This document shows, one piece after another, positions 28,192 to 30,295 of a stretch of DNA of 64,000 bases (within the stretch, counting starts at the first letter, position 1; each line of letters starts with the position of its first letter). Below the pieces are notes generated by a model. It was not told the DNA's origin, did not search any database, and worked only from the letters and a program-made list of their open reading frames with translations. Both the position numbers and the translations under genes were made by a program. Source of the stretch: Minwuiaceae bacterium (GTDB taxonomy: Bacteria > Pseudomonadota > Alphaproteobacteria > Minwuiales > Minwuiaceae); the NCBI GenBank assembly GCA_028278525.1, contig JANQEE010000009.1, positions 62,001 through 126,000 on the forward strand. Direction: 5' to 3'.

Positions 28192-28743
28192 ATGCTTGGA
28201 AAACTACGATGGATCCTGCCCGTTCTGCTCGGCTCGGCCGTTATGGCGACCGCGGGAACGGCAAACGCGTCGCTGATTGGCGACGAGGTTACCTATACAT
28301 ACGAAAATCCCGCCAGCCCAGCTTCTAATTTCGGTCCCATTCCGGCGATCGTAGGCGCTGGCGTCGAATTTCCGTTCGAGATATCCGCCGACGTCGACGC
28401 ATCGAGCATCGATTTCTTGACGCCTTTTGACGGGCTTATTTTCGGATCTGTGGAAATAACCATCGGAGATCTTGACTGGGTCGGAGTGCTCGGAGAAATC
28501 GTCGACATTGAGCTGACCTTCCTCGATCCGAATGTCGAGGCGGATGTGAGCTTCACGGCTGATAGCGTGACGTTCAATTTGGCCAGCGGCTCAATCGACC
28601 AATCCGGCGTTTTTGCATCGATCGAACTCATCACCAAGCATGTCTCGGGCGCCGACGTTCCCGCGCCCGGCATGCTGGCCCTGCTCGGCCTCGGCCTTGC
28701 GGGCCTCGGCTACGCGCGGCGCAGGCGGACCAGCGCGGCGTAA
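28192..28743 (+). CDS. Secreted PEP-CTERM-type protein under sigma-54 control
   Basis: 183 residues with a signal peptide (about 1-25, ending GTANASL). The mature part is beta-rich and acidic, without a recognised domain. The end is a typical tripartite signal: VPAPGMLALLGLGLAGLGYARRRR, starting with a P-A-P variant of P-E-P, a hydrophobic span and arginines. Exosortase would process it and anchor or release it, probably to the surface. Its sigma-54 promoter fits the known link between PEP-CTERM genes and the PrsK/PrsR-RpoN regulation described for this system; no regulator is in the window. Confidence 0.8.
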   Translation: MLGKLRWILPVLLGSAVMATAGTANASLIGDEVTYTYENPASPASNFGPIPAIVGAGVEFPFEISADVDASSIDFLTPFDGLIFGSVEITIGDLDWVGVLGEIVDIELTFLDPNVEADVSFTADSVTFNLASGSIDQSGVFASIELITKHVSGADVPAPGMLALLGLGLAGLGYARRRRTSAA

Positions 28744-28870: not shown

Positions 28871-28890
28871 CAATTACCCCGAGGTAATTG
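28871..28890. promoter_or_regulatory. Palindromic operator upstream of the efflux gene promoter
   Basis: CAATTACC-CCGA-GGTAATTG: perfect 8-bp arms, 4-base centre, ending 11 bases before the -35 hexamer at 28902. This is the layout of a regulator-binding site next to a promoter. The regulator is not obvious in the window. Confidence 0.6.
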
Positions 28891-28901
28891 ACGGGCCGGG
28901 A

Positions 28902-28930
28902 TTGACGCGCGCCGACACGACGCTTAGCGT
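28902..28930 (+). promoter_or_regulatory. Promoter of the leader peptide and efflux gene
   Basis: TTGACG (28902-28907), 17 bases, TAGCGT (28925-28930). The transcript would start near 28937 and carry AGGAG at 28945-28949 just before the leader ATG. Confidence 0.6.
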
Positions 28931-28958
28931 GCCTTCCGCAATTCAGGAGCATTTCAAC

Positions 28959-29006
28959 ATGATTGTCGCAATCGTCGTGGTAGGGAGCTGGCGCATGGAC
29001 CGGTGA
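28959..29006 (+). CDS. Leader peptide of an attenuator, Ile/Val-rich
   Basis: Fifteen codons, MIVAIVVVGSWRMDR, ATG at 28959 and TGA at 29004, with AGGAG nine bases upstream. Six of residues 2-8 are Ile or Val, the hallmark of ribosome-stalling leaders that sense branched-chain aminoacyl-tRNA (as with ilv operons), plus one Trp. It lies between a good promoter and a strong terminator (29032-29060), and the downstream gene is an efflux pump, not a biosynthesis gene. Confidence 0.7.
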   Translation: MIVAIVVVGSWRMDR

Positions 29007-29060
29007 CGGTGACCGTGCCGTCGACCCATGCGCCCCCGACTGGTTCGGGGGCTTTTTTTT
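28991..29060 (+). terminator. Transcription attenuator before the efflux gene
   Basis: The terminator hairpin is GCCCCCGA (29032-29039), loop CTGGT, TCGGGGGC (29045-29052) followed by eight T (29053-29060). An upstream segment GCGCATGG (28991-28998, within the leader's last codons) is complementary to CCATGCGC (29026-29033), which overlaps the 5' side of the terminator stem by two bases. The two pairings compete only slightly, so other antiterminator pairings may matter. A ribosome stalled on the Ile/Val codons would leave 28991-28998 free; one ending at the TGA would cover it. Confidence 0.75.
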
Positions 29061-29098
29061 ATGCCTGTTTCCGACCGTCGCCCGGCAGAGAGGAGCCG

Positions 29099-30295
29099 AT
29101 GTTTTACGCCGCCGCCAGCCCGCCGATGCTGTTCACGCTGATCCTGCTTTGCGGATCGTCGGTGCTGTCGCTCAACATGTTTCTGCCGTCGCTGTCGGCG
29201 ATGGCCGCGGAGTTCAAAGTCGATTATGCGGTGATGAGCCTGTCGGTCGCCGGATACCTGGCGGTCACGGCGGCCTTGCAACTGATCATCGGGCCGCTTT
29301 CGGACCGGTTCGGGCGGCGGCCGGTGCTGCTGGCGGCGCTGGCGATCTTCACGGCCGCCTCGCTGGTCTGCGCGTTCACCACGGATATCCGCGTGTTCCT
29401 CGCCTTTCGCGCGGTGCAGGGGGCGATAATCGCCGGGTGGACCCTGTCGATCGCCGTGATCCGCGACACCGCGCCGCCGCAGGAGGCGGCGAGTTTGATG
29501 GGTTACGTCAGCATGGCGATGGCGGTCGCGCCCATGCTGGGCCCGGTGCTGGGCGGGGCGCTGGACGCGCTGTTCGGCTGGCGCACCAGTTTCCTTACCT
29601 ATGCCGGCCTGGGGCTCGCGGCCTTCGCGCTCTGCTGGGCCGACCTGGGCGAGACCAATAAGACGCCGTCGAAGACCTTCGCGGCGCAGTTCAGGACCTA
29701 TCCGGCGCTGCTCCGGTCGCGCCGTTTTTGGGGCTACGCGCTCTGCATGGCGGTCTCCATCGGCGCGTTCCACGCGTTCCTTGCGGGCGCGCCGCTGGTC
29801 GCGACCGGGATCTACGGCATGTCGACGGCCACGCTGGGTTTCTGCATGGGGACCATTACGGCGGGTTTCATGTTCGGCAGCTTCCTGTCGGGACGGCTGG
29901 CCCGACGGTACGCGCTGACCACGATGATGCTCGTCGGGCGGACGGTCGCCTGCACGGGCCTTCTGGCGGGGCTGGCGCTGCTGGCCGGCGGGCTGACGCA
30001 TGTGGCGCTGATCTTCGGCGCGACGATCTTCGTCGGGATCGGCAACGGCCTGACCACGCCGAGCGCCAGCGCCGGCGCATTGTCGGTCCGGCCGGAGCTG
30101 GCGGGCAGCGCGGCGGGCCTGATCGGCGCGCTGACGGCCGCCGGCGGCGCGGCGCTGACGCAAATCACCGGCGCGGTGCTGACCGCGGAGAACGGCGCGC
30201 ACGGACTGCTGATCATCATGCTGTTGGCGTCGCTGACCGGCTTGCTCGCCGCGCTGTATGTGCGTTGGGTGGACGGCAAGGAAGCACGCGCTTGA
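29099..30295 (+). CDS. MFS efflux transporter, Bcr/CflA family
   Basis: About 398 residues from the ATG at 29099 behind GAGGAG; a longer frame starting at 29003 is not used, because it would run through the attenuator. Twelve membrane spans. The MFS loop motif GPLSDRFGRRPVLLA lies near residue 62, and a LAFRAVQGAIIAGWTLSIAVIRD block near residue 105 is characteristic of 12-span drug:H+ antiporters such as Bcr and CflA. It exports a small molecule using the proton gradient. Control by an Ile/Val leader suggests its substrate or need is linked to branched-chain amino acid or translation status. Confidence 0.9.
   Translation: MFYAAASPPMLFTLILLCGSSVLSLNMFLPSLSAMAAEFKVDYAVMSLSVAGYLAVTAALQLIIGPLSDRFGRRPVLLAALAIFTAASLVCAFTTDIRVFLAFRAVQGAIIAGWTLSIAVIRDTAPPQEAASLMGYVSMAMAVAPMLGPVLGGALDALFGWRTSFLTYAGLGLAAFALCWADLGETNKTPSKTFAAQFRTYPALLRSRRFWGYALCMAVSIGAFHAFLAGAPLVATGIYGMSTATLGFCMGTITAGFMFGSFLSGRLARRYALTTMMLVGRTVACTGLLAGLALLAGGLTHVALIFGATIFVGIGNGLTTPSASAGALSVRPELAGSAAGLIGALTAAGGAALTQITGAVLTAENGAHGLLIIMLLASLTGLLAALYVRWVDGKEARA

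Follow-up and report, generated by a model that had tools for sequence, protein, structure and literature searches.

Organization of the locus

The window, by which we mean the whole 64,000-nucleotide (64 kb) stretch of Minwuiaceae DNA analysed here, carries an MFS transporter gene of the Bcr/CflA subfamily that is preceded by a compact leader region (Table 1). All parts that a first-pass annotation had noted from the sequence alone, namely a palindrome, a promoter, a Shine-Dalgarno sequence, a leader peptide, a terminator with eight T and the MFS gene itself, were found in the sequence. The MFS protein matches the TIGR00710 model (Bcr/CflA efflux) with 218.7 bits, above the curated cut-off of 200.9; among proteins of solved structure, EmrD (2gfp) and MdfA are nearest to it. 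An earlier start of its reading frame, at 29003, was rejected because the starts of the orthologs match the position used here. Directly upstream of the region lies a gene for a PEP-CTERM protein (28192-28743), which bears an exosortase sorting signal.

Table 1. Features of the leader region and the gene behind it, in window coordinates
Feature	Position	Strand	Basis and remarks
Perfect 8-4-8 palindrome CAATTACC-CCGA-GGTAATTG	28871-28890		Unsupported as a part of the device
Promoter TTGACG-17-TAGCGT	28902-28930	+	Sequence; TTGACG 28902-28907, TAGCGT 28925-28930, 17 nt between
Leader Shine-Dalgarno AGGAG	28945-28949	+	Sequence; AGGA/GGAG/GAGG in most orthologs
Leader peptide ORF MIVAIVVVGSWRMDR, 15 residues	28959-29006	+	Conserved in orthologs; stop TGA 29004-29006
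Regulatory codons ATC GTC GTG GTA (Ile Val Val Val), -11 to -8 from the stop	28971-28982	+	Val conserved, third base free
Antiterminator 5′ arm GGCGCATGG, within leader codons Trp-Arg-Met-Asp	28990-28998	+	Conserved pairing, folding
Stop-codon hairpin CCG-GUGA-CGG, nested inside the antiterminator	29000-29009	+	88% of cells paired (27 sequences)
Antiterminator 3′ arm CCATGCGCC	29026-29034	+	Conserved pairing, folding; 29032-29034 shared with the terminator stem
Intrinsic terminator GCCCCCGA-CTGGT-TCGGGGGC + 8 T	29032-29060	+	Stem 29032-29052 (8 pairs), T at 29053-29060
MFS transporter gene, Bcr/CflA subfamily, 398 aa	29099-30295	+	TIGR00710 match

The surroundings of the gene are uninformative about its role: none of its neighbours suggests a link to branched-chain amino acid (BCAA) metabolism, and neighbour genes are shared among close relatives only. 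Apparent conserved neighbours were rejected, as the large clusters came from the MFS gene itself, as its antisense or shadow ORFs. The window genome encodes 12 related MFS genes, yet the attenuator element is present as a single copy, and neither a second copy nor one before the ilvB gene of this genome was found. Upstream of that ilvB gene, at approximately 1360-1420 of locus L103, there is a long inverted repeat, CTCCCCCGTCCCAACCACC ... GGTGGTTGGGACGGGGGAG.

Mutually exclusive antiterminator and terminator

In the first-pass annotation the antiterminator was not obvious, and a 5′ arm at 28991 was thought to overlap the terminator stem by two bases. We located the antiterminator as nine pairs between GGCGCATGG and CCATGCGCC. 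The arm near 28991 is thus real, although it begins one base earlier, and it is its partner that runs into the terminator stem, by three bases rather than two, an overlap so small that we count it against the explanation favoured below. Across an alignment of 27 sequences, the antiterminator core GGCGC/GCGCC (28990-28994 and 29030-29034 in the window) is paired in 98% of cells; nested within it is an NTGG/CCAN stem with double changes in nine sequences at the outer pair, and innermost is a CCG-GUAA/GUGA-CGG hairpin around the stop codon. The terminator has a conserved six-pair core that is paired in 100% of cells. A single 9-bp helix in all species was rejected as the general form of the antiterminator, since its inner pairs (51:86 and 52:85) lack covariation, while the nested form covaries. 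An unsupervised consensus of ilvB attenuators alone yields the same antiterminator and also the stop-codon hairpin.

Raw folding energy was discarded as evidence: that of positions 28937-29060, a fold recommended at the outset as a check, is unremarkable (z -1.1), and support comes instead from conservation and covariation. Folding with a ribosome in place, its footprint assumed to extend 12 bases downstream from the start of the A-site codon, separates the two states clearly. With the ribosome at codon -10 and RNA made as far as the terminator loop, the computed probability of the antiterminator is 0.75-1.00 in 27/27 sequences (at least 0.9 in 24 of them and 1.00 in the window), and with the ribosome at the stop codon that of the terminator is 0.90-1.00, again in all 27. 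Because equilibrium folding of the complete RNA favours the terminator in most of the 27 sequences, the choice for antitermination must be kinetic and made during transcription, as it likewise is in classical attenuators. The element combines a translatable leader, which has a Shine-Dalgarno sequence and a cluster of codons specific to a single amino acid or pathway, with an exclusive pair of structures backed by conservation and covariation, and in the computed folds a ribosome on the regulatory codons frees the antiterminator arm and one at the stop codon masks it.

Conservation before MFS orthologs

Conservation of the leader and its pairing in related genomes, proposed as a check on the first reading, is evident before orthologous MFS genes, and the element stands well above chance. 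Trained on 26 relatives with the window left out, a covariance model recovers it in the window (90.5 bits, E 3e-23); the next best match anywhere in the 64 kb has E 0.8. The element was found upstream of 40 of the 58 MFS orthologs, in many alphaproteobacterial families. It is present in most of the alphaproteobacterial upstream regions read, among them those of Kiloniellaceae, Rhodovibrionaceae, Sneathiellaceae, Bradyrhizobium and some Rhodobacteraceae; the remaining 18 of the 58 orthologs lack it, and control by the element is therefore not essential to the transporter.

Among the 28 orthologs whose upstream regions were read for a promoter, 23 keep one of the TTGAC type, mostly about 58 bases upstream of the leader start (-58), with the pattern TTGAC-N16..18-(T/C)(A/T)nnnT; in a strict consensus scan the window promoter obtained no score. 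The ortholog leaders comprise 14-21 residues, retain the valine run and end in V-V-V-G-x-x-R-(M/L)-(D/G)-R-stop, after which follow CGGTAACGG...CCA...CCCCATGCGCCCCCGA...TCGGGGGCTTTTTTT and then the MFS start. Conservation in the 27-sequence alignment is weak in the leader N-terminus and the loop regions, and what is retained is the switch and its position before the MFS or ilvB gene.

On the MFS protein tree, element bearers are spread over the whole ortholog clade, requiring 8 changes compared with 21 in shuffles, and the element is absent from the gammaproteobacterial and most Rhodobacteraceae members. Because the bearers are spread in this way, the element is an old companion of this transporter subfamily and no local accident. 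Metagenome genomes labelled Gammaproteobacteria or Arenicellales (loci L032, L038, L044, L048 and L053) hold close MFS orthologs, with 61-68% identity, that lack the attenuator, which suggests that the MFS gene was transferred without its control.

Kinship with ilvB attenuators and Atu_C8

BCAA attenuators have been described for alphaproteobacterial ilvB (Vitreschak et al. 2004, as cited in PMC1273637), and an ilvBN attenuator for Caulobacter (Tarleton et al. 1994, as cited in PMC4117421). The window element shares with the alphaproteobacterial ilvB/ilvBN attenuators the promoter, the short BCAA-rich leader, the stop-codon hairpin and the GC-rich terminator; their antiterminator GCGCATGG/CCATGCGC and their CCG-GUAA-CGG hairpin at the stop codon recur in the MFS element. 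Because a model made solely from 16 Rhodobacteraceae ilvB leaders, rather than from the published Caulobacter sequence, matches the window element at 74.9 bits (E 5e-20), the MFS element and the ilvB attenuators are homologous. The initial view of the region as a ribosome-mediated attenuator of the branched-chain type is borne out by this kinship to true ilvB attenuators, together with the antiterminator and the conserved leader. The differences lie in what is controlled and what would be sensed: the element is followed by an MFS transporter gene instead of acetolactate synthase (ilvB/ilvI), and its sensor codons specify Ile and Val only, not all three branched-chain amino acids, with mainly Val predicted to be sensed in place of Leu, Ile and Val.

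A class-wide scan of 385 genomes with the covariance model R1 gave 16 strong matches, 12 of them before MFS genes and four before the acetolactate synthase gene ilvB; weaker matches (L087-L095, E 0.0008-0.007) were left out of membership. All four ilvB matches fall in one family, f23, in which the element occurs in 204/248 genomes and the loci read precede ilvB in nearly all cases. Since loci of Actibacterium, Ruegeria and Phaeobacter likewise have the element before ilvB, we take f23 to be the Rhodobacteraceae/Roseobacteraceae group. Two f23 genomes (G631 and G472) hold both the MFS and the ilvB versions, and each version has the type of leader typical of the gene it precedes. In the window genome and the other MFS-element genomes examined, the element was not found at the ilvB genes. 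One degenerate match (L159, G512:C6:280323-280408, E 1e-8) has neither an MFS nor an ilvB gene downstream and is possibly a decayed copy of the attenuator.

No Rfam family matches the window at its gathering score. RF02502 (Atu_C8), listed as a Rhizobiales sRNA with a description that gives no function, aligns over the window element at 27.4 bits (E 0.06), below its gathering score of 50, and matches the MFS element of Rhizobium pisi (L069) at 91.4 bits. Its layout is the same as that of the window element, to which it is a more distant relative than the Rhodobacteraceae ilvB attenuators. In the family of R. pisi (Rhizobiaceae), Atu_C8 is present in 115/121 genomes, and all 30 loci read (L164-L193) stand before ilvB and have Ile/Leu/Val-rich leaders such as MKNSAVILVVGRRMGRMV; in family f107, Atu_C8 matches lie before the MFS gene. 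On the strength of these positions, Atu_C8 is the ilvB attenuator of Rhizobiaceae, with the MFS version present on both branches of the attenuator family.

A valine bias in the sensor codons

The leaders of the two gene classes differ systematically in the amino acids encoded ahead of the antiterminator arm. At positions -11 to -8 from the stop, the 31 distinct MFS leaders have 86 Val, 10 Ile and 3 Leu among 124 codons, and the 30 distinct ilvB leaders 85 Val, 20 Ile and 13 Leu among 120. Leucine occurs within the sensor codons -12 to -8 of 8/31 MFS leaders versus 29/30 ilvB leaders (Fisher P 5e-9, with P values serving as a guide only, as this positional codon test was set after the leaders had been seen and related sequences are non-independent). 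Over the same codons, 15/31 MFS leaders versus none of the 30 ilvB leaders contain Val with neither Leu nor Ile, and all three branched-chain amino acids are represented in 3/31 versus 24/30; the few MFS leaders that keep Leu include that of R. pisi. The first proposal, sensing by charged Ile/Val tRNA, is thus refined: the MFS leaders would respond mainly to valine, not to Ile and Val alike. The window leader has two Ile codons and only Ile and Val among its sensor codons, and may also respond to Ile.

The third base of the Val codons at -8 to -11 varies freely, while in codons -5 to -1 it hardly changes, as expected of codons that form the stem. Such a pattern fits selection on valine as such, hence on Val-tRNA charging, and speaks against a nascent-peptide motif for a drug. 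One attenuator family would serve two targets with retuned sensor codons, Leu/Ile/Val for synthesis and mainly Val for transport.

Proposed mechanism and alternative explanations

We consider it very probable that the region is a ribosome-mediated transcription attenuator through which the charging state of valyl-tRNA controls the MFS transporter gene. Transcription would start just downstream of the promoter, and the leader would be translated at once. When charged Val-tRNA is sufficient, the ribosome is expected to reach the stop codon and cover the 5′ arm, so that no antiterminator forms and the terminator stops transcription. When Val-tRNA is short, the ribosome would stall on the Val run, just upstream of position 28990, leaving GGCGCATGG free to pair with CCATGCGCC; this would sequester the bases at which the terminator stem begins, allowing RNA polymerase to continue into the MFS gene. 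From the parts, their conservation, the exclusive pairings, their register with the ribosome, the ilvB homology and the Val bias, all established by comparison and computation, we infer a response to Val-tRNA in the cell and a transporter that serves branched-chain (valine) physiology.

Among the competing explanations, the one that holds up best, although we regard it as unlikely, is induction of an efflux pump by a ribosome-targeting antibiotic that makes ribosomes stall on the leader. The MFS gene does belong to a drug-efflux family, and read-through would follow as well from any inhibitor that delays ribosomes on the Val run. Moreover, in Bacillus subtilis the bmrB-bmrCD operon provides a multidrug transporter under ribosome-mediated transcription attenuation through a leader peptide (PMC4191407). 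That system resembles the window in placing a drug-transporter operon under such control; unlike the window, it encodes an ABC transporter, is induced by translation inhibitors and is not tuned to a branched-chain amino acid. In the MFS leaders, however, the identity of valine is conserved with free third bases, the same device stands before ilvB, and the C-terminal leader residues are those dictated by the RNA stem, not by a peptide motif, so that at the codon level tRNA charging is favoured over drug stalling.

We give somewhat less credence to a role in trans, in which the short terminated RNA or the peptide encoded by the leader would be the chief product of the region. The Rfam relative Atu_C8 is described as an sRNA, and in Sinorhizobium the trpL-derived RNA and peptide, rnTrpL/peTrpL, act in trans on resistance genes (PMC7298713, PMC10117765); yet the leader N-terminus and the loops are poorly conserved, whereas the switch and its place before MFS or ilvB genes are maintained.

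It is very unlikely that the palindrome, which the first-pass annotation took for an operator, binds a repressor of the MFS promoter. It is a perfect 8-4-8 repeat only 11 bases upstream of the -35 hexamer, but the 64 kb window contains five perfect repeats with 8-bp arms and a 4-base loop, a chance-level number, its sequence recurs nowhere else in the genome, and it is not found whole in any ortholog.

That the element survives from an ilvB attenuator as a relic of a rearranged ilv locus, or was transplanted by chance, and no longer regulates the MFS gene can practically be dismissed: its homology to ilvB attenuators is real, but the element stays with the MFS subfamily in many families, where promoter, leader, switch and terminator remain intact before orthologous genes and would have decayed in a relic, and its leader differs systematically from the ilvB type.

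Implications for the transporter subfamily

The regulated protein belongs to the same subfamily of MFS transporters as EmrD, MdfA and Bcr, and we know of no case of a Bcr/CflA family member under amino-acid attenuator control. In the open-licence literature, no report was found that places a BCAA attenuator upstream of a Bcr/CflA gene or describes leader-peptide amino-acid attenuation of such an MFS transporter. The attenuator hints, from its sequence and position, that this "drug pump" belongs to the response of the cell to valine shortage. A transporter subfamily that is widespread but carries no annotation beyond multidrug efflux is thereby linked to one specific metabolic cue, which offers a testable way towards the substrate it naturally handles. 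Should the protein be an exporter, its production when valine runs short would suggest a substrate that causes the shortage, such as an analogue, an inhibitor or a product of imbalance; as an importer it would act as a scavenger.

More tentatively, and as a possibility that we hold to be rather doubtful, this "drug efflux" subfamily may form part of a valine-starvation regulon, in which it either moves valine-related metabolites or expels compounds (valine analogues, or inhibitors of valyl-tRNA synthetase or the BCAA pathway) that are detected only through a fall in charged Val-tRNA. Were the latter version true, a poison would be sensed by its effect, and no dedicated drug sensor would be needed.

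The Rfam "sRNA" Atu_C8 at the same time gains a function. In three Rhizobiaceae genomes (loci L194, L195 and L197), second Atu_C8-like copies are located upstream of additional ilvB-like (acetolactate synthase) paralogs, which indicates that the attenuator was duplicated together with the ilvB-like gene.
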